Shown here in pieces: positions 140 through 20,949 of a DNA stretch of 32,154 bases. The position numbers and the translations under genes are program-made. The stretch comes from Chitinophagaceae bacterium (GTDB taxonomy: Bacteria; Bacteroidota; Bacteroidia; Chitinophagales; Chitinophagaceae): contig CANGEZ010000003.1 of assembly GCA_947452875.1 (NCBI GenBank), forward strand, positions 1 to 32,154, given 5' to 3'. Below the pieces are notes generated by a model. It searched no databases. It was not told where the DNA came from and saw only the letters and a program-made list of their open reading frames with translations. How positions within the stretch are numbered: position 1 is the first letter of the stretch; every line of letters starts with the position of its first letter.

Positions 140-1189
140 TTATTTATACATATTTAATACATTCTCTGCCATCCCCTTCACCTTCTCCGCCACTTCTTTC
201 GGTTTCACAACTTTCACCGAATCCCCAAATCTATAAATAAGCATATACAATTCCGGGCTTTCAAATAAATTCAAAGTCAATTTCAATTTCTTTTTGTCTT
301 TACTGTATTCAACTTGCTGAGACAAATGAAGCGGGTTTTTCTCAATAGATGAAAATTGTATGGGATTGTTGAATTCCAAAACTAATGTAATTGGTTTCTT
401 ATCATGCTCATGCCAGATGCCAATTGAATATTTGAAATAATCTTCTGTATTAAATTCGGGGTCCTTGAAATAAGGCTTATTACTATGGTCGATGGATTGG
501 ATATTGTCTAATGAAAACACATTGGTTTTTCTTTCATGGCTAGAGGTGTAGTCATAAGCAACCATATACCATTTGTTATTGAATTGTTTGATGATGTAAG
601 GGCATAGGTGCTTAGTTTTAACCACGCCATTATTATTTTGGTACACTATTTCCATGCACCATTCTTCACTGATAGATCTAAGTAATTGAGGAATCCACTT
701 TCTGCTGGATGGTTTTATTGGATTTTCAATTTGTATAAAGTCTTTGTTTTTTTTGTTGACAAATTTATCTGCAGTAATACTTTCATCAATTAACCTGTTT
801 ACAATGCTTTCAAATTGTTCGTGTAATTCAGTGCCTTGAAAAATATTAAATAAACTTCCGGCAAGCATCAAAAGATTTTGTTCGTCTTTATTTACGGTGT
901 CTCTGAAAATGCGAAAGCTATTGTCAGAATAATAATATCCTGTGGTTCTATTGTTGATTAATTTGAATCTCGTTCCCTTTTTTCGATTGATATTGTCAAT
1001 CTCTATTTTCAAGTCTCTGATGTCATTACTTAAACTGTCGTTAGTAATTGGACTTTGTAAATGACTGTTCAGTTTTCTTAATAAGTTCTCCCTGCTGAGG
1101 TACTCATATCTGTACAATAAATCGTCGATTATTTCCAGTCTTTCGTTATAGCGCTTGGGTGTTTCTCTTACTGTTTTTTTTGTTGCCAT
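140..1189 (-). CDS. WYL-domain transcriptional regulator (HTH + WYL)
   Basis: ORF 349 aa; N-terminal HTH-like region, WYL-type segment (IENPIKPSSRKWIPQLLRSI...YQNNNGVVKTKHLCPYIIKQFNNKWYMVAYD) and WCX-like C-terminus; paralogous in layout to 14190..15185. Confidence 0.85.
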   Translation of the reverse strand: MATKKTVRETPKRYNERLEIIDDLLYRYEYLSRENLLRKLNSHLQSPITNDSLSNDIRDLKIEIDNINRKKGTRFKLINNRTTGYYYSDNSFRIFRDTVNKDEQNLLMLAGSLFNIFQGTELHEQFESIVNRLIDESITADKFVNKKNKDFIQIENPIKPSSRKWIPQLLRSISEEWCMEIVYQNNNGVVKTKHLCPYIIKQFNNKWYMVAYDYTSSHERKTNVFSLDNIQSIDHSNKPYFKDPEFNTEDYFKYSIGIWHEHDKKPITLVLEFNNPIQFSSIEKNPLHLSQQVEYSKDKKKLKLTLNLFESPELYMLIYRFGDSVKVVKPKEVAEKVKGMAENVLNMYK

Positions 1190-1623: not shown

Positions 1624-1657
1624 CTAAATTAGAATCCTTGGTTGTATTCTACTTACA
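1624..1657 (-). promoter_or_regulatory. promoter module for 1372..1605: TGTAT-N5-TTACA (1643-1657), -7-like TAATTTAG (1631-1624)
   Basis: 9/10 match to palindrome, 11-nt spacing to -7-like element. Confidence 0.55.
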
Positions 1658-1687
1658 ATTGAAAATGATTGAAAAAAAATCTCTCAT

Positions 1688-1721
1688 TGTACAAAGATTA
1701 CAATCTCCCTTCCCATATTTA
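1688..1721 (+). promoter_or_regulatory. promoter module for helicase: TGTAC-AAAGA-TTACA (1688-1702), CATATTTA at 1714
   Basis: 9/10 palindrome, 11-nt spacing; palindrome ends 34 nt before ATG 1737. Confidence 0.6.
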
Positions 1722-1736
1722 CACAAATTTTCAATT

Positions 1737-4679
1737 ATGTCTGATTCTCAATTTCATTTCAACAACGCCAAATCAAAATTGAATGTGGCTCAATTGCAAG
1801 CAGTCGAAACCATCGAAGGTCCTGTAATGGTACTCGCTGGTCCAGGTACGGGAAAGACGGAAGTATTAGCAACAAGAATCGGTCAAATCCTTACCGAGAC
1901 GGACATGCAGGCTTCCAATATTTTGTGTTTGACTTTTTCAAATGCAGGCGTGGAGTCGATGGAAAAAAGATTGGCGAAATTGTTGGGTAAGACAGGGGAG
2001 GAGATTGAAGTACATACTTATCATTCTTTTGCTCAGAAAATTATCAATGAAAACAACCAGACGTCAATTGAGAAATCACAGTTGATCACCGATTCACAAC
2101 GTTTCATGATTCTTGAAAAATTGTTTTCCAATCCGATTCTTGCAGGGAAATATTTTGATTTGAAGCCGGCGAATAAATCAAGACTGGTTTCAATGGCTTC
2201 ATTATTTAGTTTGTTTAAAAAAGAAGGGATTTGTGTTGACGATTTGCGTGATGCATCTCAACATGCTGTAAATAATTTACTGCCTTACGTTGAAAAGTTT
2301 TTAAAAAAGAACGGAGACTTAAATGCTGAAGGTAAAAAAATCGAAATTCAAATTCAAGAATTCACTGAGGCCGTTGCACCTATGTATGAGGCTTATCTTA
2401 ACATCATCAAGGAACGAAACAAATTGGAATACGATGATTTGCTCGACAAAGCCATTCAAATTCTATCGGATGATGAGAACATGCTTTTCAATTACCGCGA
2501 AAAATACCAATACATTTTAGTTGATGAATTTCAGGACACCAATAAAAAGCAATTGGATTTATTGGAAGTGTTGATAAGAGAAGTTGAGCAACCGAATTTA
2601 TTTATCGTTGGTGATGATGATCAATGCGTATATAAATTTCAGGGTGCCAATGCAGCCAACTTCAATTGGATATGCGAAATGCTTCCTGATATGCAGGTGA
2701 TTCTTCTTGAAAAAAATTACAGGAGCACACAGGCGATTTTAGATAGTTCGCATCAAGTGATCAGCAATAACAACAATCGACATGAACTGAAAACCGCTTC
2801 ATTACAAGCTTGTATCGTTTCTGAAGACAACCATCATCCCATTGTAAAGTCTTTCAAAGATGAAGACCAGGAAGCATTTGACATTGTTTCTGAAATAAAA
2901 AGATTGATAGAAGCTGGTCACGAAAACAGTACGATTACGGTATTGTACAGAAAGAACAAAGAAGCTGCTGTTATCAAAAAATGGCTCAATCATTTTGACA
3001 TTCCTTTTTCTGTAAACCAAACCAAAGGTGATTTGATGGATACGGAATTTGGAAAAAGACTGTATCAAATTTTACAGTTTATTAGATTGTATCAAAAAGA
3101 CAACAACGTCGCCATCGTGCATTTTCACAAACTTATGATGGAGCTGGGATTTACTAATTCATTGTTGTATACTTTTCTTTATCACAAACAACACGTAGAT
3201 AGGAGTTTGAGCTATTTTGATTGGCTACAATCTTTGCAGGAAGATGATTTGAATAAAAATACAATCAATGTGTTTAGTCAGTTGATGCTTTTACACGAGC
3301 AAGGAGATAAAACATTGACGGCTGAATTTTTAGAAAGTCTGTATGAATTGGCAACTACTAATCTTATTGTTGGTGAAAATATTTCAAACGCTTGGGATGA
3401 ATTTGTGAATGAGTTCTCAGCCACAACCAATTTGAATACACCGATTTCATTGGCGAACATGATGTTTTACCATCACATTTATGATTTGTCGATTGATTAT
3501 AGATTAACCGACAAGATTAGTTCTGGTGTGATATTGTCTACTATACATTCCAGTAAAGGATTGGAATATGATGTAGTTTTTATCAAAGGCTGTCAGAATA
3601 AAAACTGGGAAGATACCGGTGATTCAAGAGGTGGCATCACTGTGCCGAGAGTTTTGAACCAAATTATCAGACAAGATAATGATGATATTGAAGATTTAAG
3701 AAGAGTTTTCTATGTTGGCTTAACCAGAGCAAAATGTAGATTGTACATCAGCTTTTGCAAAGATGAAACGTTGAAATATCCTTCCATCGCCTCAACTTTA
3801 TTGGCGCCGTTTTTTGAATCAGAAAATATCATCGTTGAAGACATTCCATTGATTGAACTACCTTCTCTTGAAGATGATTTGATTTCCTTAGAAACTTCAG
3901 AACCTTTAATGGAGTTGATTCGTTACAGAGTATCACAGTTTGCGATTTCGACAAGCAGTACTTACAATTGGTTGCAGTGTCAAAACAAATTCTTCTTCAC
4001 CAATATCTGCAAGATTCAAGATGAAGGTAATGAAGCGATGAGTTTTGGGAGCATGGTGCATGAAGTGTTAGAAGAGATTGCAAAAGATATTTCTATTCAG
4101 CGTGATGCGGTAAGAATTCAATCACTTGTTGATCGTGTGTTCTTGTCTTATAAATATCAGTTTCATCCTTTACATCAAACCGGTTACAGACAAGCTGCCA
4201 AATCTGTGGTCATTAATTATTTGAATGAAAAGCCATTTACAAAGACACCCGATGAAGTAGAAAAATATTTAGCTCATACTATGGATAATGGTGTGAAGTT
4301 GAGCGGCGTTTTAGATAGGCTAGAATTTCATGTAGACACCGCAAAGGTTATTGATTATAAATCCGGAAAATATTATGCCAACAATGAAATTTTCTCGAGC
4401 AGTCTAGAACCCGGTAGCGGATATTGGAGGCAGGGGATGATGTATAATTATCTTATAAATGGGGTTTATGGGAATAAATACAAAGTTGATTTTGCATTTC
4501 ATTATGTAGAGGAAAAAGATGAAAAGAATAGAGTAAAACCATTTACCTATGAACCGAATCCTGGTTATGAAGAATGGTTATTAAAAATCTGGAACCAGAT
4601 TCAGGAGATGAAATTTAATAGGAGTTGTGTTGATGAGGGATGTGTGTATTGTAGAGAGAAGTTGTCTACTAAACAATAA
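1737..4679 (+). CDS. UvrD/Rep-family ATP-dependent helicase with C-terminal PD-(D/E)XK nuclease domain
   Basis: Walker A AGPGTGKTEVLATR, DEFQDTN, GDDDQCVYKFQGAN, STIHSSKGLEYDVVFI, RRVFYVGLTRA; C-terminal GVLDRLEFH...VIDYKSGK. ATG at 1737 (MSDSQFHFNNAK) preferred over the track start 1638 because promoter motifs lie at 1643-1721. Confidence 0.93.
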   Translation: MSDSQFHFNNAKSKLNVAQLQAVETIEGPVMVLAGPGTGKTEVLATRIGQILTETDMQASNILCLTFSNAGVESMEKRLAKLLGKTGEEIEVHTYHSFAQKIINENNQTSIEKSQLITDSQRFMILEKLFSNPILAGKYFDLKPANKSRLVSMASLFSLFKKEGICVDDLRDASQHAVNNLLPYVEKFLKKNGDLNAEGKKIEIQIQEFTEAVAPMYEAYLNIIKERNKLEYDDLLDKAIQILSDDENMLFNYREKYQYILVDEFQDTNKKQLDLLEVLIREVEQPNLFIVGDDDQCVYKFQGANAANFNWICEMLPDMQVILLEKNYRSTQAILDSSHQVISNNNNRHELKTASLQACIVSEDNHHPIVKSFKDEDQEAFDIVSEIKRLIEAGHENSTITVLYRKNKEAAVIKKWLNHFDIPFSVNQTKGDLMDTEFGKRLYQILQFIRLYQKDNNVAIVHFHKLMMELGFTNSLLYTFLYHKQHVDRSLSYFDWLQSLQEDDLNKNTINVFSQLMLLHEQGDKTLTAEFLESLYELATTNLIVGENISNAWDEFVNEFSATTNLNTPISLANMMFYHHIYDLSIDYRLTDKISSGVILSTIHSSKGLEYDVVFIKGCQNKNWEDTGDSRGGITVPRVLNQIIRQDNDDIEDLRRVFYVGLTRAKCRLYISFCKDETLKYPSIASTLLAPFFESENIIVEDIPLIELPSLEDDLISLETSEPLMELIRYRVSQFAISTSSTYNWLQCQNKFFFTNICKIQDEGNEAMSFGSMVHEVLEEIAKDISIQRDAVRIQSLVDRVFLSYKYQFHPLHQTGYRQAAKSVVINYLNEKPFTKTPDEVEKYLAHTMDNGVKLSGVLDRLEFHVDTAKVIDYKSGKYYANNEIFSSSLEPGSGYWRQGMMYNYLINGVYGNKYKVDFAFHYVEEKDEKNRVKPFTYEPNPGYEEWLLKIWNQIQEMKFNRSCVDEGCVYCREKLSTKQ

Positions 4680-6233: not shown

Positions 6234-6267
6234 TAAAACTATGTGTGATTATAGTATCCTTTTTACA
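6234..6267 (-). promoter_or_regulatory. degenerate promoter module for caspase-like gene: TGTAA-AAAGG-ATACT (minus), -7-like TAGTTTTA
   Basis: 8/10 palindrome match, same 11-nt spacing. Confidence 0.45.
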
Positions 6268-6280
6268 ATTAAATAAATCA

Positions 6281-6614: not shown

Positions 6615-7217
6615 TTATCGGGACAAGTTTTTAACTTCTCTGATTTGTTCACCTAATAATTTGAATTCGTTGATCTCAAGTGGAGAGACTTTCAATAAAC
6701 TCATTTTTCCTTTGTTTTCTCTGTAGTATTCCCTTAAATCCATCAATAATCTTCCCAACACATTTTCTCCTGTAACAATATTTTCATTTCCTTTTTCTCT
6801 CACACAACCCCAGAAACGATCACTGTTACTGATTTCTACAATTTCTTTATTACCTGTTCTGTCCAATAAACCTCCAAACAGAAGAGGATGTGAACATAAT
6901 TTTACTTTCAAACACCAGTACATCAAATCAACTTTTATTTCATCAAAATCATCCCTTGTAAATTCTTTTCTGTATTTCTTCGAAACCATTTTTGAACCTT
7001 TCGGACTCTTATTTTCTAAAATCTCCCTTTGAATATCAGGATGTGAAGTAAAACGTAAACACTGATACAATGATTCACTACTTCTTACCAAAATATCATT
7101 TACATGTAAATGAAAATATTTACCTGACATGTTTGATAACCCACCGAAAGGTTCATCGACTTTGTAAAATGAGATGACTTGAGTTAAATCATACTTTTGA
7201 AGTGTTGTTGTTTCCAT
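6615..7217 (-). CDS. NADAR-domain (YbiA/DUF1768-like) protein
   Basis: FYKVDEPFGGLSNMS...SSESLYQCLRF...KGSKMVSK...MYWCLKVKLCSHPLLFGGLLDRTGNKEIVEISNSDRFWGCVREKGNENIVTGENVLGRLLMDLRE is characteristic of NADAR. Confidence 0.9.
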   Translation of the reverse strand: METTTLQKYDLTQVISFYKVDEPFGGLSNMSGKYFHLHVNDILVRSSESLYQCLRFTSHPDIQREILENKSPKGSKMVSKKYRKEFTRDDFDEIKVDLMYWCLKVKLCSHPLLFGGLLDRTGNKEIVEISNSDRFWGCVREKGNENIVTGENVLGRLLMDLREYYRENKGKMSLLKVSPLEINEFKLLGEQIREVKNLSR

Positions 7218-7236: not shown

Positions 7237-7270
7237 CAAATATGGTTGTAGTGATTGTAATCTTTTTACA
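7237..7270 (-). promoter_or_regulatory. promoter module for NADAR gene: TGTAA-N5-TTACA (7256-7270), -7-like CATATTTG
   Basis: 10/10 palindrome, 11-nt spacing. Confidence 0.7.
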
Positions 7271-7282
7271 TCGCCTAAAAAA

Positions 7283-7864
7283 TTATCCTGACATACCCCA
7301 TTTATTTTTAATGATTCTATTTATGTCATCAACAGGATTGAGTTTGAAATTTATTTTTGGTTTTTCATAACTGAAGAAACAAAAATCTCTTACATCAAAA
7401 GTGAATAATTTCAATGCACTTGGGTGTATGGTATTCTCGCAATACAAATAATCTGCAGCGTATACGCCATGGACATTGGCATCATTAATCAAATTAGGAT
7501 CTAAATACCAGGTATTGTTTATCAATGAAGTATCAATCCTCCACACATCAAATTCATAAATAAATCTGAGGTATTCATAATTATCCAATCCATAACTATC
7601 AAAACAGATAGGCCATAAACCGGTTAATTTATGTATCTGATTGTTTGCCCACACACCTCCTAAACCTTTATCTTTCCCACAAATTCCATCAAAAACAAAA
7701 CTCAGTCTTTTTAAAAATATTTCTTCATCCGTCTGGTTTACATTTCCGACATAATTCAGATGATACAAATACCGATCAGGTCTGTATTTTTTCCATTCTG
7801 TTTTAGGAGTGCTGATAGTGTGTCTTCTTTTCCGCTTGATTGGGCAATAAGGAGTCGATTTCAT
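7283..7864 (-). CDS. hypothetical protein, possible ADP-ribosyltransferase (ART)-like fold
   Basis: ORF 193 aa; order of elements YLYHLNYVGN...GLGGVWANN...FDVWRIDTSLIN-WYLDPN...YLYCENTIHPSALKLF resembles ART-fold layouts; low-certainty motif reading. Confidence 0.35.
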   Translation of the reverse strand: MKSTPYCPIKRKRRHTISTPKTEWKKYRPDRYLYHLNYVGNVNQTDEEIFLKRLSFVFDGICGKDKGLGGVWANNQIHKLTGLWPICFDSYGLDNYEYLRFIYEFDVWRIDTSLINNTWYLDPNLINDANVHGVYAADYLYCENTIHPSALKLFTFDVRDFCFFSYEKPKINFKLNPVDDINRIIKNKWGMSG

Positions 7865-7938: not shown

Positions 7939-7972
7939 CAAATGTCTGAATCCAAATTGTAATGTATTTACA
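7939..7972 (-). promoter_or_regulatory. promoter module for 7283..7864: ATTGTAA-TGTAT-TTACAAT, -7-like GACATTTG
   Basis: 10/10 palindrome, 11-nt spacing. Confidence 0.6.
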
Positions 7973-8101
7973 ATGAAGAAAATATTTTTAAATATAATGC
8001 TTGTTTGTTTTCATTCAATTATGTTCAATAAATGGCTTAATGTGTTTTATTTTCTTTCCGAAAAAATCTAAGTTTTCTCTAAATTTCTTTAAATTTGATA
8101 A

Positions 8102-8332
8102 ATGGCATTAAAAGCAGAAATACCGTTTAATCAGATTTTGACAGTTGTCAAAACATTGAGTCCTTCTCAAAAGGAGCAGTTAAAAGCAGTCCTTTCAGAG
8201 CCCAAAAGTATCTCCAAAAAACAATCCGATTTGACCAAATTATTACTTTCCGGCCCGGTTTTTTCTAAAAAGCAAATTGATGTAATTAAGCAAAACAGAA
8301 AAAGTATAAACCAATGGCGGACAAAAAAATAA
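8102..8332 (+). CDS. putative antitoxin of a VapC module
   Basis: 76-aa ORF overlapping the start of the downstream PIN toxin. Confidence 0.7.
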   Translation: MALKAEIPFNQILTVVKTLSPSQKEQLKAVLSEPKSISKKQSDLTKLLLSGPVFSKKQIDVIKQNRKSINQWRTKK

Positions 8333-8700
8333 TGATAGATACTTCTGTTCTCATTGAATATTTTAGAAAAACAGATAAAAATAAAACTACTTTATTAAAT
8401 CTTTCACTTGAATTTAATCATATTTATATTTCTTCAATTACAGAGTTTGAAATTTTTAATGGGGCTACTCCAAATCAGATTCAATTTTGGAATGAATTGA
8501 TTTCTAAACTCACAGTTCTTCATTTTGACAGCCAAGCTGCGAGAATCGCCGCGAAAATAGTGAGCAATCTCAAGAAAAAAAGAAAAAGCATTGATAAACC
8601 AGATTTATTCATAGCTTCAACAGCCTTAGCCAATAAACTGACACTTGCTACTTTAAACAAAAAAGATTTTGATGTAATTGATTCTTTAAGTGTCATTTGA
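8314..8700 (+). CDS. vapC: type II toxin VapC, PIN-domain ribonuclease
   Basis: MIDTSVLIEYF, SSITEFEIFNG, KPDLFIASTALANKLTLATLNKKDF. Confidence 0.88.
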   Translation: MADKKIMIDTSVLIEYFRKTDKNKTTLLNLSLEFNHIYISSITEFEIFNGATPNQIQFWNELISKLTVLHFDSQAARIAAKIVSNLKKKRKSIDKPDLFIASTALANKLTLATLNKKDFDVIDSLSVI

Positions 8701-8714
8701 TTATTCATTTTATA

Positions 8715-10382
8715 CTACCTATTAAACCCAATCACCTCCCTCATACTCTTCTTCTCCAGCATCAATTCTTGTTCTGCCAATTGCATTAAATAGGCTTCGT
8801 TGATTTTGATTTTCTCATCCAGTAAAGTATCTACCGCAACTTTCTTTCGAATGTTTTCTATCTGTCCTCCGCTTAAAGTTATTTTAGAGCAGATGCTTTT
8901 TAACACCGAAGTTTTAACCTCAGGAAATTTAGTTTTCCAAATTTGAGCAACAGTTTGTGGACCGGGTTTATCGAAACGAATTTTGTATAGGAATCTTCTG
9001 TCGAATGCTTTGTCGAGATTGTCGACAAGATTGGTGGTGGCAATGAAAATGCCTTCGAAGTTTTCCAACTCTTCCAACAAGATATTCTGCATGGTGTTCA
9101 TTTCCTGATCACCACGGTCGTTAACATTATGACGCTTACCGATAATCGCATCGGCTTCATTGAATAACAAGATAGGAGTCTGTTCGAATTCTTTCACAGC
9201 CTTACGATATTCATCAAACAATGCTTTTACGTTTTTAGCCGTATCGCCTACCCATTTGCTTTTTATTTTACTGGCATCAGCTAGCATCACAAATCGATTG
9301 CTGTTTTTACCCAATTGCATCACTGTTTCTGTTTTGCCGGTTCCAGGATGGCCGTATAACAATACGCTGATACCTTTTTTCATACCCTGACTCTCTAAAC
9401 GTTCAGTGAGATTGGGGAAATTATCCTGACTCAGCATATTGTGCAATTTATTCACCATCTGCTGTTCATTGTTTTCGAAAATGAGTTTCTTTTCAACGAT
9501 GCCGGTAGGCTCCAATTGCTTGAGCATTCCTTCAGGTAATTTGTTTTTTACGACAGCATTTTTATCAAATGCATGAACAGCTTTTTCAGAAAGGAAATAA
9601 CTAATACCGCCAAACATGTCATTGCTAACAGATTCTTTAATCAAACCTGAAGTCAACAAGAAATTAGTTCCGGCCTTATAAGAATTTCTGAGCTGGTATT
9701 GTTCTTCTTTTGAAGGTGTCAATTCACGAATGATGGTATCGTAATCGCAACTTTCATTTCCTAAATAATGTTGTAGACAAATGAACATGAAATGAGTTGC
9801 ATCCTCAGGTTGCATGTTCATATTGATGATGAATTCAGCCAACTCGATTTTGGGATTGCTATTGATTAAATCTGCAGTCCATTGAATGAATTGTTTGTAA
9901 GTAATACGATGGCTGTTCCTGTCGGCAATTTTACTTTGAAAACGAGAGATCAACTGAAATGAAGTTATTATTTCAGGTAAATCAAAGTTCTCCATCTTGC
10001 CGGTTAATACCGATTTGATTAGTTTGACGGTCAAATGGTAATCAGTCAACGGATATAATTTAGGGTCCTTCTTAGGTGACATCCACTCACGGGCAACTAT
10101 AGGCGCCAATACATCGTTCAACATCAAGGCGCTGGAAGTTCTCAAATCCAAATAAGACAATAATTCTTTGATGGAACAATTGCTGTTTTCAAATTGCGAT
10201 TGAATCAACAAAGCAGTTATTACCGTTTGTTCATCTGTAGCATTAAAGAAATTGGATAACAACTCAGTTTCATTTTTACAGGCTTCCAATTGTTCCGCCT
10301 TAAGACAGGAGTCTTTTGAAGCATCATAAATCTTTTCAATAGCATCAAGAATCGGGTTTTGAGATGGTGTGAATTCGAACAT
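8715..10382 (-). CDS. AAA+ ATPase (Vps4/FtsH-like ATPase core) with long N-terminal helical region
   Basis: Walker A LLYGHPGTGKTETV, Walker B ILLFNEADAIIG, IFIATTNLVDNLDKAFDRRFLYKIRFDKP. Confidence 0.9.
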   Translation of the reverse strand: MFEFTPSQNPILDAIEKIYDASKDSCLKAEQLEACKNETELLSNFFNATDEQTVITALLIQSQFENSNCSIKELLSYLDLRTSSALMLNDVLAPIVAREWMSPKKDPKLYPLTDYHLTVKLIKSVLTGKMENFDLPEIITSFQLISRFQSKIADRNSHRITYKQFIQWTADLINSNPKIELAEFIINMNMQPEDATHFMFICLQHYLGNESCDYDTIIRELTPSKEEQYQLRNSYKAGTNFLLTSGLIKESVSNDMFGGISYFLSEKAVHAFDKNAVVKNKLPEGMLKQLEPTGIVEKKLIFENNEQQMVNKLHNMLSQDNFPNLTERLESQGMKKGISVLLYGHPGTGKTETVMQLGKNSNRFVMLADASKIKSKWVGDTAKNVKALFDEYRKAVKEFEQTPILLFNEADAIIGKRHNVNDRGDQEMNTMQNILLEELENFEGIFIATTNLVDNLDKAFDRRFLYKIRFDKPGPQTVAQIWKTKFPEVKTSVLKSICSKITLSGGQIENIRKKVAVDTLLDEKIKINEAYLMQLAEQELMLEKKSMREVIGFNR

Positions 10383-10419
10383 GTTGAAAATATTTAAAGG
10401 TGGATAAAAAAGTGGATGA

Positions 10420-10453
10420 CAAACATAGAAACCGAGATTGTAATCTTTTTACA
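10420..10453 (-). promoter_or_regulatory. promoter module for AAA+ gene: GATTGTAA-TCTTT-TTACAATC, -7 TATGTTTG
   Basis: 10/10 palindrome, perfect TAnnTTTG at 11-nt spacing. Confidence 0.75.
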
Positions 10454-10483
10454 ATCAGAAAAAAATAAAAGAAAATATTTCAA

Positions 10484-10517
10484 TGTAAATAGATTACAAA
10501 TCCAGTTTTTATCATTG
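10484..10517 (+). promoter_or_regulatory. promoter module for 10533-DraG operon: TGTAA-ATAGA-TTACA, -7-like TATCATTG
   Basis: 10/10 palindrome, 11-nt spacing; palindrome ends 34 nt before ATG 10533. Confidence 0.7.
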
Positions 10518-10532
10518 TGAAAAATATTTCGA

Positions 10533-11192
10533 TTGATGAATATAGACACTATAAATGAGCTTCCCTTGGTTCAAAAATATTTCGGACTAAAAGAAAACAA
10601 GTCAGTAATGAATCTTCTCGGATCAGATTATTGGGATGAAATGCCCGATGATTTATCAAGAAATGAATTTTTGATTTATTTGGATTTACCGAGACCTGCT
10701 GTTTTGCTTCGTTTAAGAGGAGGGAAGTCATTGTCTTCAAGAATAGCTAAACTGCCACCAATCAAAGAAGTGCTAATGCAATTAGCTGATTTGAATTTTG
10801 ATTCGATTTTATTTGCGCTTACTTTATATGGCACAGCTTCCAATCAAAATCCGCTTGATATTATTAACAGCTCAAAGGATTTTAAATCAATTCCTTTAAT
10901 TGATGATATTTTAAAACCAACAAATGGCTATGTGTTATTTGCACATCAGTTTGAACAAATTTACTCCAGAATACCTTCCTCCTCAGAAATAGAAATTGTC
11001 ACATTAAGAAAAGATTGGAATAAGAAAAAGCCTGAGGCCATTGAACTTGTTAAGCAAACTGAAATTACTTCGGGTTTGAGTTTTTATGATTTGCTAATAG
11101 AAAAAACGATAGAAGAAAATCACTTTGTATGGAATGCGAATTTTAAAGGAGCGAAGTTGTTGTGGGATTACTTAAACAAAATTCAAAAGTAA
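10533..11192 (+). CDS. hypothetical protein (first gene of DraG operon)
   Basis: 219-aa ORF, divergent from AAA+ gene, 24 nt upstream of DraG ORF. Confidence 0.65.
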   Translation: MMNIDTINELPLVQKYFGLKENKSVMNLLGSDYWDEMPDDLSRNEFLIYLDLPRPAVLLRLRGGKSLSSRIAKLPPIKEVLMQLADLNFDSILFALTLYGTASNQNPLDIINSSKDFKSIPLIDDILKPTNGYVLFAHQFEQIYSRIPSSSEIEIVTLRKDWNKKKPEAIELVKQTEITSGLSFYDLLIEKTIEENHFVWNANFKGAKLLWDYLNKIQK

Positions 11193-11216: not shown

Positions 11217-12158
11217 TTGAAAAATATAAAAGATGCCCTTTGGGGTTTTGTAGTGGGAGATGCATTAGGCGTTCCCTATGAATTTTCAACGCGAAGTATG
11301 ATGAAAGAAAATCCTGCAGTTGACATGGTAGGATATGGAACTTATAATCAACCGCCTGGAACATGGAGTGACGATACTTCCATGTTGTTATGTGTGTTGG
11401 AAAACATCATTAATAAAGGAGATATTCATTCTCTTGCTGACTTGTTTTTGAAATGGTATCGTGATGATTATATGACGCCGCATGGCGAGTTGTTTGATAT
11501 CGGCATTACCACAAGTGCTGCATTGCAGAAAGTCTTGATTGGTGTAAAGCCTTCACTGGCAGGTGGCGATGATGAAAATTCAGCTGGCAACGGTAGTTTG
11601 ATGAGATCCTTGCCTTATGCATTTGTGGAAGATATCAATAAATCGGTTTTCAATATGAACAGGGAAAACCGGATTACGCATCGAAATAGTAAATGCTCGT
11701 TGTGTTGTATGTTTTATGTGAAGATGATGCGTTCGCTACTAGAAGGAAATGATAAGTTTGAGGCATTCAAAACTGGAGGTGCTTACTTAAGATTTGGTTG
11801 GCGGATAACAGACAGTGATGATGACCACGAAGAAGAATGGCAATGGTTTAAAAAATTATTCAATCCTGATTTTAGCTCATTGCCTGAATCTGAAATCAAA
11901 TCAACTGGTTATGTATTGAGTACATTAGAAGCTGCCAGCTGGTGTTTTTTAAATACCGATAACTATAAAGATGCGGTTTTGAAAGCAGTGAGTTTAGGTG
12001 GCGATACGGATACAATTGCAGCGTTGACAGGCGGTTTGGCAGGCATGTACTATGGTTATGAAAATATTCCACTAGAATGGCGGCAACAAATTGCCAGTCC
12101 ACATTTAATCAATAATCTTTTAGATAAAATAAATCCCGATGCAAAATACATTCACTAA
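11217..12158 (+). CDS. ADP-ribosylglycohydrolase (DraG family)
   Basis: DALWGFVVGDALGVPYEF, GTWSDDTSMLLC, VSLGGDTDTIAALTGGLAGMYYG metal-binding motifs; TTG start. Confidence 0.93.
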   Translation: MKNIKDALWGFVVGDALGVPYEFSTRSMMKENPAVDMVGYGTYNQPPGTWSDDTSMLLCVLENIINKGDIHSLADLFLKWYRDDYMTPHGELFDIGITTSAALQKVLIGVKPSLAGGDDENSAGNGSLMRSLPYAFVEDINKSVFNMNRENRITHRNSKCSLCCMFYVKMMRSLLEGNDKFEAFKTGGAYLRFGWRITDSDDDHEEEWQWFKKLFNPDFSSLPESEIKSTGYVLSTLEAASWCFLNTDNYKDAVLKAVSLGGDTDTIAALTGGLAGMYYGYENIPLEWRQQIASPHLINNLLDKINPDAKYIH

Positions 12159-12957: not shown

Positions 12958-13182
12958 ATGGCTATTCCTGTAAAATATATGGTGGATGATAAAGGCCAAA
13001 AAACCTCAGTTTTGGTTCCAATAAAGGCATGGACAAAAATTAATGAGGATTATTCAAAACTTCAAAAGAAAATTGAAATATTAACAGGTATAAAAGATTC
13101 TTTACAAGAGATTAAAAGTGCTAGAAAGTCGGGAAAGAAATTACAAACCTTAAAAGACTTTTTAAGTGAAGGTAACAATTAG
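12958..13182 (+). CDS. putative antitoxin of RelE/ParE-type module
   Basis: 74 aa, coiled, overlaps downstream toxin start by 17 nt. Confidence 0.7.
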   Translation: MAIPVKYMVDDKGQKTSVLVPIKAWTKINEDYSKLQKKIEILTGIKDSLQEIKSARKSGKKLQTLKDFLSEGNN

Positions 13183-13525
13183 AATTACAACAAATTTTTT
13201 AAAATCAGCAAAACCTTTACTCAAGAAATACATTTCTCTAAAGAAAGATTTATTAATGTTAGAGAAAGAGTTGATTCAAAATCCCCATATTGGTATTTCA
13301 TTAGGTAATAATGCTTACAAAATAAGGCTTAAAATTTCTTCTAAACAAAAAGGTAAAAGTGGTGGAGCTAGAGTAATTACATTAGTTGAATCTAACCTTT
13401 TAATTAAGACGGAAAAAGTTTCAGAAAACGAAACTTACGTTTATCTTTTATCAATTTTTGACAAATCCGAAACTGAAAATATTTCCGAAAAAGAATTAAA
13501 GGATTTGATAAAGAGCATCAAATAA
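13166..13525 (+). CDS. RelE/ParE-like type II toxin
   Basis: 119 aa; YKIRLKISSKQKGKSGGARVITLVE...YLLSIFDKSETENIS layout typical of Bacteroidota RelE/ParE-like toxins. Confidence 0.75.
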   Translation: MKVTIRITTNFLKSAKPLLKKYISLKKDLLMLEKELIQNPHIGISLGNNAYKIRLKISSKQKGKSGGARVITLVESNLLIKTEKVSENETYVYLLSIFDKSETENISEKELKDLIKSIK

Positions 13526-13541
13526 ATATTTCTTCCTCCAT

Positions 13542-13575
13542 TGTAAATACTTTACAATCCCAATTTCTACTTTTA
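13542..13575 (+). promoter_or_regulatory. promoter module: ATTGTAAA-TAC-TTTACAAT, -7-like TACTTTTA
   Basis: 10/10 palindrome, 11-nt spacing; no intact gene immediately downstream. Confidence 0.6.
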
Positions 13576-13579
13576 ACCC

Positions 13580-13713
13580 ATGATTTACAATTACACTCTC
13601 GTCTTCTAGTTTTCATTCTTTAATCAAATTTTATCGCCAAACAACTTTAGGGTTGTATCAGGAGAAGTATGTCTTTGATGTACAGAAACTGAAAATCGAC
13701 ACAAAGGTATCGA
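13580..13713 (+). pseudogene. possible decayed gene downstream of a regulon-type promoter
   Basis: Promoter module at 13542-13575, ATG 13580 stops after 9 codons (MIYNYTLVF*), followed by a coding-like fragment KFYRQTTLGLYQEKYVFDVQKLKIDTKVSRW*. Confidence 0.25.
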
Positions 13714-13807
13714 GGTGGTAAAATAGTTCTTTGACTTATGGATAAAGTTTTCATTCTCAGTGATGAGACTTTATAAATAATTATTTAAACAATTTAAAAC
13801 TACAATT

Positions 13808-14086
13808 ATGAGTAAAGAAAAAATCCAAAAAATCGACTTAATCAAGTCGTACGATGTTAGTGAAGAATATGTAATCGATTCATCGAAAAGAAGGAGAGAG
13901 TTTGTAATGAGATACTGGTTTGATGAAGTGAATTTTCAACATGAAACCAAACCTAGGTTTAAATTTCTATCCGAAAATTCGGAGTTAAGAAAAAGATGTG
14001 AACTGATTTTAAAAACACATTCGTTAGACAACAGAAATGTAAGATTTGAAGAATCGCTGGTATTTGTGTTATTGATAAGTAAATAA
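13808..14086 (+). CDS. hypothetical protein (92 aa)
   Basis: ORF with ATG; upstream shares CTTTATAAATAAT with the WYL gene at 14190. Confidence 0.45.
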   Translation: MSKEKIQKIDLIKSYDVSEEYVIDSSKRRREFVMRYWFDEVNFQHETKPRFKFLSENSELRKRCELILKTHSLDNRNVRFEESLVFVLLISK

Positions 14087-14189: not shown

Positions 14190-15185
14190 ATGCCTGTAAA
14201 TAAAAATGCAGTTTTTCGTTATAGAATTATTGATGGATGCTTGAGAAATTCAATGCGCAAATATCCCACGCTACAGATGCTTAAGGAAATGATTATGGAA
14301 GGCGCCGGACTTGAATCTTTGTCCGACTCGCAAATCAACAAAGATATCAGAGCGATGAAAGATATTTACAACGCGCCTATTGAAAATCATAAAATTCATG
14401 GTGGTTATTATTATACTGAACCTGATTTTTCCATCAATAGCTTTCCACTAACACATGACGAAATTCGTGTGCTGGATTTGTCTACTTCAATTCTCAAGCA
14501 AATCAAATACTCAGGTTATTTTAATCAATTTGAGTCGGTGATTGATAAACTAATCAGCGGGTTCAGAATTTCGCAGATTCCTGGATATGAGCAGAGACAA
14601 ATCATAGAAATTGAACAACCCATATCCGATACCGGTTTACGTTGGATAGAAATGGCTTACGAAAGTATCATCAACAAATTGCCATTACATATCGATTACA
14701 GAAAATTCAATAGTGATGAAGTAAAGCAACATATTTTCAGCGCTTACATCATTCGCGAATATAGGAATCGATGGTATATAACAGGATATTCTGAACGTTC
14801 AGAAGGTATAACTACACTTGCGCTTGATCGTGTGGTGAATATGGAACTAATGAAAGGTGGTTATCATTCTGCTGACTTTGATGCCAAAGATTTTTTTAAA
14901 TATGGTTTTGGTGCAACCGTGTACAATGATTCTAAACCCTTTAAAGTGGAGTTGCAATTTGACAATTCAGTTGCTGGTTACATGCTTACCAAGCCCTTAC
15001 ATTCTACTCAGAAAATAATATCTCATGATGAAAACCTTCATCTTGAAATTGAGTGTTATCTCACACCTGAATTAGAGGGCACAATTTTAAGTTATGCGGA
15101 GAATGTGAAAGTGATTGCACCACAAGAGCTGATAGACAAAGTTCAAAAAAGAGCAGAAGAACTAGTGGCGTTGTATAAAAAGTAA
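14190..15185 (+). CDS. WYL-domain transcriptional regulator
   Basis: Same layout as 140..1189: FRYRIIDGCLRN, GGYYYTEPDFSI, IEIEQPISDTGLRWIEMAYESI, AYIIREYRNRWYITGYSER, FFKYGFGATVYNDSKPFKVELQFDN. Confidence 0.87.
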   Translation: MPVNKNAVFRYRIIDGCLRNSMRKYPTLQMLKEMIMEGAGLESLSDSQINKDIRAMKDIYNAPIENHKIHGGYYYTEPDFSINSFPLTHDEIRVLDLSTSILKQIKYSGYFNQFESVIDKLISGFRISQIPGYEQRQIIEIEQPISDTGLRWIEMAYESIINKLPLHIDYRKFNSDEVKQHIFSAYIIREYRNRWYITGYSERSEGITTLALDRVVNMELMKGGYHSADFDAKDFFKYGFGATVYNDSKPFKVELQFDNSVAGYMLTKPLHSTQKIISHDENLHLEIECYLTPELEGTILSYAENVKVIAPQELIDKVQKRAEELVALYKK

Positions 15186-16099: not shown

Positions 16100-16165
16100 G
16101 ATACATACTCAATTCTTTCAATCAAATAAGTTTAACATCCGTTAACATTTAATTTATCAATCCTT

Positions 16166-16199
16166 TGTAAATCCTTTACATCGTAGCTCCCTATCTTGT
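16166..16199 (+). promoter_or_regulatory. promoter module for secreted protein 16215: TGTAA-ATCCT-TTACA, -7-like TATCTTGT
   Basis: 10/10 palindrome, 11-nt spacing; palindrome ends 34 nt before ATG. Confidence 0.6.
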
Positions 16200-19404: not shown

Positions 19405-20631
19405 TTACTGATATATCCCCATAATCTTACTCATCTCATTCTTCACTTTCGAGCCCGTAATTTTCGCATAAGCCTGAGTATGTTTTATGGTACTATGACC
19501 GAGCATCTTACTCACGGTTTCAAGAGAAATCCCATTGCTTAAAGTTATAGTAGTAGCAAAAGTGTGACGACCCAAGTGCATAAATATTTTCTTATCAATA
19601 TTCGCCAGCAATGCTATTTCTTTCAACTTGCCATTAAGTTTAGAGTTGTAGGGAACCTTCCAGCGGAAATTTCTAAAGTCAGCATCTATGGAATATTTCA
19701 GTAGGATTTTTTCAGCGGTTGGTAAGAGCGGAATCAAACTCATGATATCCGTTTTGTAACGAGCTTTATGAATAAACTTACTTCCGTCTTGGTCGATGTT
19801 GATATGCCCTTTTTTGAGTTCTGTGATATCCGAATAAGCCAGTCCAGTGTAGCAGGCAAATAAAAATAAATCACGGGCCAATTCTAAATCTGGCTTCAAA
19901 TCGGATAGCCGCTGCAATTGATCTAATTCTTCTATGGAAAGATATTCTCTGTTTACTGGCTTTCTTTTAAAATGAACCGAATCAAAAGGGTTCTTTTGGA
20001 TGACACCACTTTCAATAGCTAGTTTTAAAACTGATCTAAGAACACTTAATAAAGCGGTAACCGAGTTTTGACCGTTCTGTTTTTCTTTACGCAGAAAGTT
20101 GCTGAATTTGTTGATGAAATCTACATCAATTCCACTAACGGGATAGTTTTTAAAATTCCTACTGTTCATCAGAAACTCTTCAAGATATCGTTTAACTCTT
20201 TTGTACTTATAAAAAGTAGTGCCCCGCATATCAATATCAACGGACTCTTCCAGCTCTTTTATTTTTATATCCATGTATTCCATCACGGACTGGGGCGCTG
20301 GTTCTTTCCCTTTGATACAATCGATAAGCTCGTTGACACTAAATGGCTTTTTACTTTCCTTTAGTTCACGGTACCGCTCTTTGGATTTTTCTCTGATGAG
20401 TACCAGTTCTTCATTGACAGCGATGGCCTCATCATTAACTGGGTCAACCATGTTTTTCTCCGAGATCCAGTAATCAGCATGGCAGGAAAGACCTGTTACG
20501 ATATCTTTTCTGATTTTGTGATAGTTAACCCTCATTACAATAGGGTGTTCTCCATTTTCATAGGCAAATGTTCTTCTAAGATGGAAATGAATGCTGAACT
20601 CAGCTGATTCCATTAAATTGTTTTTTCTCAT
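19405..20631 (-). CDS. Bacteroidota-type tyrosine recombinase/integrase
   Basis: FACYTGLAYSDITELK, HLGRHTFATTITLSNGISLETVSKMLGHSTIKHTQAYAKI catalytic motifs; N-terminal arm-binding and SAM-like regions. Confidence 0.93.
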   Translation of the reverse strand: MRKNNLMESAEFSIHFHLRRTFAYENGEHPIVMRVNYHKIRKDIVTGLSCHADYWISEKNMVDPVNDEAIAVNEELVLIREKSKERYRELKESKKPFSVNELIDCIKGKEPAPQSVMEYMDIKIKELEESVDIDMRGTTFYKYKRVKRYLEEFLMNSRNFKNYPVSGIDVDFINKFSNFLRKEKQNGQNSVTALLSVLRSVLKLAIESGVIQKNPFDSVHFKRKPVNREYLSIEELDQLQRLSDLKPDLELARDLFLFACYTGLAYSDITELKKGHINIDQDGSKFIHKARYKTDIMSLIPLLPTAEKILLKYSIDADFRNFRWKVPYNSKLNGKLKEIALLANIDKKIFMHLGRHTFATTITLSNGISLETVSKMLGHSTIKHTQAYAKITGSKVKNEMSKIMGIYQ

Positions 20632-20873: not shown

Positions 20874-20949
20874 TGGTGGTGTGGGCCGGGGTTGAACCGG
20901 CGACACATGGATTTTCAGTCCATTGCTCTACCAACTGAGCTACCGCACC
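20874..20949 (-). tRNA. tRNA-Phe (GAA), CCA encoded
   Basis: Minus strand GGTGCGGTAGCTCAGTTGGTAGAGCAATGGACTGAAAATCCATGTGTCGCCGGTTCAACCCCGGCCCACACCACCA; anticodon stem ATGGA/TCCAT, T-arm GCCGG/CCGGC. Confidence 0.95.

Follow-up and report, generated by a model that had tools for sequence, protein, structure and literature searches.

The intergenic region between an AAA+ ATPase gene and the divergent gene of a 219-residue protein carries two palindromes that we regard as operators of a single island-wide regulon, at which a WYL-domain protein would bind and act as an activator, with regulator-polymerase complexes placed back to back at divergent units. To this reading as a whole we assign a probability of about 0.5. 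The window, that is, the entire 32,154-nt stretch of Chitinophagaceae DNA analyzed here, contains the operator TTGTAA-N5-TTACAA at eight sites in addition to a weak ninth, each in front of an island gene, with exactly 10 nt between it and the downstream Bacteroidota -7 box, which reads TAnnTTTG or a degenerate form of that sequence (Table 1). Nearly every gene of the island is preceded by such a site. The operators are conserved in relatives of the same genus as well as in other genera of the family.

The initial annotation had reported two palindromes 45 bp apart with promoters directed outward. Both claims hold: operators A and B have a start-to-start distance of 45 bp, the interval 10439-10453 given earlier being the inner 15 bp of operator A, and the pair is flanked by a -7 box on the minus strand at one side and on the plus strand at the other. 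The corresponding start sites are predicted near 10415 (AAA+ side) and 10522 (10536-DraG side), ~107 bp apart. Operator A has the highest composite score in the window (45.6 bits). Shuffling the mononucleotides of the 154-bp intergenic region yielded two palindromes with at most one mismatch in 0 of 20,000 shuffles (mean 0.004).

Table 1. Operators, promoter elements and genes of the window, with variant operators of two relatives in the last row
Feature	Position	Strand	Remarks
Operator A, TTGTAATCTTTTTACAA	10438-10454	-	serves AAA+ gene; reads TTGTAAAAAGATTACAA toward it; perfect 6-bp arms, 5-bp spacer
Operator B, ATGTAAATAGATTACAA	10483-10499	+	read toward 10536 gene
-7 box TATGTTTG of AAA+ gene	10420-10427	-	exact TAnnTTTG, 10 nt from operator A
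-7 box TATCATTG of 10536-DraG unit	10510-10517	+	10 nt from operator B
Spacer between operators A and B	10455-10482		28 bp, A/T-rich
AAA+ ATPase	8715-10382	-	served by operator A; Pfam AAA 1.1e-24
219-aa protein	10533-11192	+	served by operator B; no known family; start more likely ATG 10536
ADP-ribosylglycohydrolase (DraG fold)	11217-12158	+	Pfam 1.5e-71
Operator of 77-aa protein gene	1642-1658	-	one half of other 45-bp pair
Operator of UvrD-like helicase gene	1687-1703	+	other half of that pair
Single operator before NADAR gene (6615-7217)	7255-7271	-	
Single operator before 193-aa protein gene (7283-7864)	7957-7973	-	
Single operator before 92-aa protein gene (13808-14086)	13541-13557	+	leader ~228 nt
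Single operator before 16215 gene	16165-16181	+	10.5 bits; weaker -7 box
Weak operator before 5671-6216 gene	6252-6268	-	11.6 bits
WYL-A, wHTH-WYL-WCX regulator	14190-15185	+	leading operator-binding candidate
WYL-B, second WYL-WCX regulator	140-1189	-	also candidate
Variant operators TTGCCAATAGRTTACAGAG	L070:1456-1472 and L072:11306-11322		at WYL-A homologues

With its flanking symmetry TGATTGTAA/TTACAATCA, the operator forms a palindrome of ~20 bp that suits a homodimer. The five central bases, mostly AAAGA, ATAGA or ATACA, are asymmetric, so that each operator has a direction, and paired operators are inverted relative to each other. The window, which makes up 1.4% of the genome, holds 8 of its 48 palindromes with at most one mismatch and 7 of its 8 composites of operator, N10 and TAnnTTTG with at most two mismatches. 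The initial annotation described two paired regions and missed, in this finding, the single operators at 7255, 7957, 13541 and 16165 and the weak one at 6252. Most sites are single, and the conserved unit is one operator 10 nt upstream of its own -7 box. Single promoters generally show no further operator 45 bp upstream, with degraded ones seen by eye in the same-genus genomes G043 and G052. As to the nature of the motif, an RNA element was rejected after an Rfam search of the window returned a tRNA alone, and a phage origin was rejected as well, the viral contigs having no exact match to the strict composite pattern.

The second divergent pair of the window has the identical offset, exactly 45 bp. 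When the relatives are included, the offsets of divergent pairs are 45 bp (eight pairs), 44 bp (two), 42, 35 and 80 bp, over at least six different gene pairs, namely 77-aa and UvrD, AAA and 219-aa, AAA and 92-aa, in addition to three involving unknown genes. Among the same-genus pairs (n=11; eight at 45 bp, the others at 44, 35 and 80), 9 of 11 fall at 44-45 bp, as do 6 of the 8 distinct gene combinations, a clustering with a probability of ~5e-9 if offsets are uniform between 17 and 100 bp, a model that takes no account of common descent. Two genomes of another genus, G575 and G522, have the orthologous AAA and 219-aa region with an offset of 44 and a different spacer sequence, and G300, also outside the genus of the window but in the family, has a pair at 42. 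The earlier argument that two regions would hardly share this offset by chance is supported. The accompanying assertion that these regions are unrelated is less certain, since their 28-nt spacers are identical at 18 of 28 positions, and the proposed fixed geometry holds as a strong preference for 45 with exceptions at 44, 42, 35 and 80.

Overall, the 45-bp spacing is real and probably matters for how the shared regulator works; it may result from regulator contact, back-to-back polymerase packing or common descent. An explanation that dispenses with contact between regulators, and relies on common descent of divergent modules and/or a limit on polymerase packing, has in our view not quite an even chance. 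It agrees with the likeness of some spacers (18/28 between the window pairs, 19/28 between other pairs), which may share descent, and with the occurrence of the offsets 42, 35 and 80. In G575, moreover, a gap of 11 at one of the two operators makes up for their 44-bp spacing, and the -7 boxes are as far apart as in the window pair. By contrast, the spacers of other 45-bp pairs are similar at the level of shuffled sequences (12-14/28), and differing gene combinations nevertheless keep the length within 1 bp. As for the back-to-back dimers suggested by the initial annotation, the palindromes fit dimeric sites in that arrangement, whereas the sequence gave no support for coupling of the two divergent promoters. 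It is rather doubtful that an island-borne WYL activator drives divergent defense genes from operator pairs locked at ~45 bp, with two dimers and two polymerases assembled back to back and both directions firing jointly. If true, this bidirectional promoter architecture would be new for WYL regulators in the literature examined.

The gap between operator and promoter was analyzed with 61 palindromes from 16 motif-bearing loci, picked without reference to the promoter. A -7 box TAnnTTTG with at most one mismatch lies at a gap of 10 in 44 of the 61, 20 of them exact, and any other gap from 0 to 40 accounts for at most 4 cases; the gap of 11 in G575 occurs once. With the -7 box at -12 to -5, as described for the Bacteroidota -7 element (PMC9723704), the operator spans -39 to -23, is centered near -31 and covers the -33 region. 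As an activator is expected to need such a rigid gap and a steric repressor is not, activation is favored over repression. The missing -33 box was dropped as proof of activation: a TTG at the canonical -33 spacing is absent in 57 sites, but ordinary promoters of the genus are also weak at -33 and have no clear box. In general terms, a geometry this rigid would make it possible to tell an activator from a repressor, and linked divergent promoters from ones that act independently.

Comparison with known WYL systems suggested that the promoter anatomy of the island is closest to that of DriD of Caulobacter, rather than to the repressors CapW and BrxR. According to the available part of the DriD report (PMC12340889; PDB 8tp8, 9pfq, 9pfv), DriD is a WYL activator whose sites overlap the -35 at one fixed distance from the -10 on the promoters studied, just as the island palindrome covers -33 at a fixed distance from the -7 box. 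The homologous DriD protein has ~330 residues, as here, its targets are of the DNA-repair type, as here, and, as with the island operators, the site next to driD controls the operon transcribed away from it. They differ in the DNA sequence recognized, ATACGAC-N7-GTCGTAT for DriD against TTGTAA-N5-TTACAA, in both arms and spacer, so the island site is not a DriD site but may work like one. Furthermore, the DriD targets described there are scattered whereas those of the island lie together, and the same part of the report does not mention paired operators at constant offset. PafBC of mycobacteria (PMC11804915) is also a WYL activator with a fixed promoter architecture, but it is a heterodimer that uses a single -26 motif without palindrome, compared to the palindromic site of the island.

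A WYL protein might instead repress from the same operators, blocking the polymerase over -33 until released upon infection or damage, as CapW and BrxR are; we consider this possible but on the unlikely side. Known WYL regulators of defense genes do include repressors (PMC9122588, PMC9122601), and a site over -33 would obstruct the polymerase. BrxR of BREX and other defense islands (PMC9122601) binds inverted repeats with 5-bp spacers at more than one site per island, as here, and CapW of CBASS (PMC9122588) is a WYL homodimer on a ~20-bp palindrome that controls both directions of a divergent region. In addition, the available part of a report on ADP-ribosylglycohydrolase systems with WYL or Nudix regulators (PMC9503650) links WYL to the ADP-ribosylglycohydrolase, predicts that the systems counter viral ADP-ribosylation and predicts an ADP-ribose-sensing WYL repressor for such neighborhoods, though operator and geometry are not given in that part. 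The positions, however, differ: the CapW palindrome overlaps the -10, whereas 10 nt separate the island operator from its downstream -7 box, and BrxR has two sites, with the site downstream of the -10, compared to eight sites upstream of the -7 with a fixed gap. Nor does a repressor call for a -7 box precisely 10 nt away, as seen at 44 sites.

The regulator is likeliest to be an island-encoded WYL protein, WYL-A and/or WYL-B. Two WYL proteins are encoded in the window and WYL proteins are present in most motif-bearing relatives. The 5-bp spacer of the inverted repeats agrees with those bound by the WYL protein BrxR. WYL-A orthologues (at least 75% identity) occur in 5 of 93 genomes of the genus (G000, G046, G052, G057, G128), all of which carry at least five operators. 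WYL-B adjoins an operator in G024, G048, G057, G128 and G575, and thus in other species and another genus, with the site directed at the divergent gene; in relatives, the operators face the gene that diverges from WYL-B or WYL-A. WYL-B is missing from G046 and WYL-A from several genomes, so the full set of sites is not accounted for by either protein on its own. Structural similarity search placed PafBC as the top match and DriD next among solved folds, followed by BrxR and CapW; the WYL-A model, built from a thin alignment with low confidence (pLDDT 57), was used for domain identity alone. The operator is a predicted, testable site for a WYL regulon in Bacteroidota, of which our literature search found no described example.

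The composite search revealed operator clusters in the same-genus genomes G046, G052, G057 and G128 and smaller sets in G043, G024, G048, G030 and G101, and no site above 14 bits in ~340 kb of non-island DNA of G046. A wide distribution of the motif was discarded, as exact composites are confined to 3 of 399 genomes of the order, including two from the genus of the window. Two operator-bearing genomes, G043 with two perfect composite sites and G300 with four sites, have no recognizable WYL domain, and in both the island may end at the contig edge. For this reason, the AAA+ ATPase or another island protein, such as the 219-residue protein, stays a candidate for binding the operators, albeit an improbable one. 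AAA+ orthologues (at least 66%) occur in six genomes of the genus, all with AAA-linked operators and including the WYL-less G043, and a distant orthologue in G038 also has an operator. However, G024 and G048 have operators beside WYL-B and UvrD but no AAA+ orthologue, and family searches of the AAA+ and the 219-residue protein returned no DNA-binding family. Single one-mismatch sites do turn up elsewhere in the genome, but chance palindromes in A/T-rich DNA are refuted as an explanation and carry practically no weight, given the shuffles, the concentration of sites within the genome, the constant gap, the repeated offset and the cross-genus conservation.

Two observations concern possible changes of the regulators themselves. 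In G043, a 111-residue protein (L028:8278-8613) that resembles the N-terminus of WYL-B only sits in the WYL-B position beside an operator and is possibly a truncated regulator. In G032 and G034, the variant operators of Table 1 lie at the 5' ends of WYL-A homologues (43-46% identity), where site and regulator have possibly co-evolved.

We propose that a dimeric WYL regulator (WYL-A and/or WYL-B) binds the operator over -33, centered near -31, with the -7 box at a constant distance of 10 nt, and most likely activates the housekeeping polymerase, as DriD does. At divergent units, two regulator-polymerase complexes would stand back to back, and the preferred operator distance of 44-45 bp would set the start sites ~107 bp apart, so that both directions could be switched on together. 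The signal is probably a nucleic acid or ADP-ribose.

The operators precede the NADAR gene, the gene of the 219-residue protein followed by the ADP-ribosylglycohydrolase, the UvrD-like helicase followed by Fic, the AAA+ gene and several unknowns, which suggests an ADP-ribose or DNA-damage defense island. By analogy with the systems in the available part of PMC9503650, its likeliest role would be to respond to phages or rivals that act through ADP-ribosylation or DNA damage. Sharing the motif, the NADAR, ADP-ribosylglycohydrolase, Fic, AAA+ and helicase genes appear to be co-regulated as a single island, and in the relatives the motif marks more island genes without assigned function. The AAA+ ATPase weakly resembles IetA (PADLOC) and IteA (NCBIfam), far below the NCBIfam cut-off, and homologues of the 219-residue protein adjoin DraG in relatives.

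Several features of the window were noted in passing. The listed TTG start of the UvrD-like gene (1638-4679) lies upstream of its own promoter, and the true start is probably an ATG near 1735, giving 979 residues as in relatives. The leader of the 92-residue protein gene (13580-13807) is conserved over ~220 nt in four species; it contains a hairpin, ACAAC/GTTGT, and a conserved element like ATTAGTTCTTTGAC, which we take to resemble a boxA antitermination site. Next to a tRNA gene (20877-20949, minus strand; Rfam) lies a tyrosine recombinase-like gene (19405-20631, assigned by reading), an arrangement that suggests the end of an integrated island, and an attachment-site repeat of the tRNA of at least 13 nt was not found in the window. 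Finally, the small gene pairs at 8102-8700 and 12958-13525 look like toxin-antitoxin modules (PIN domain; weak RelB/RelE).
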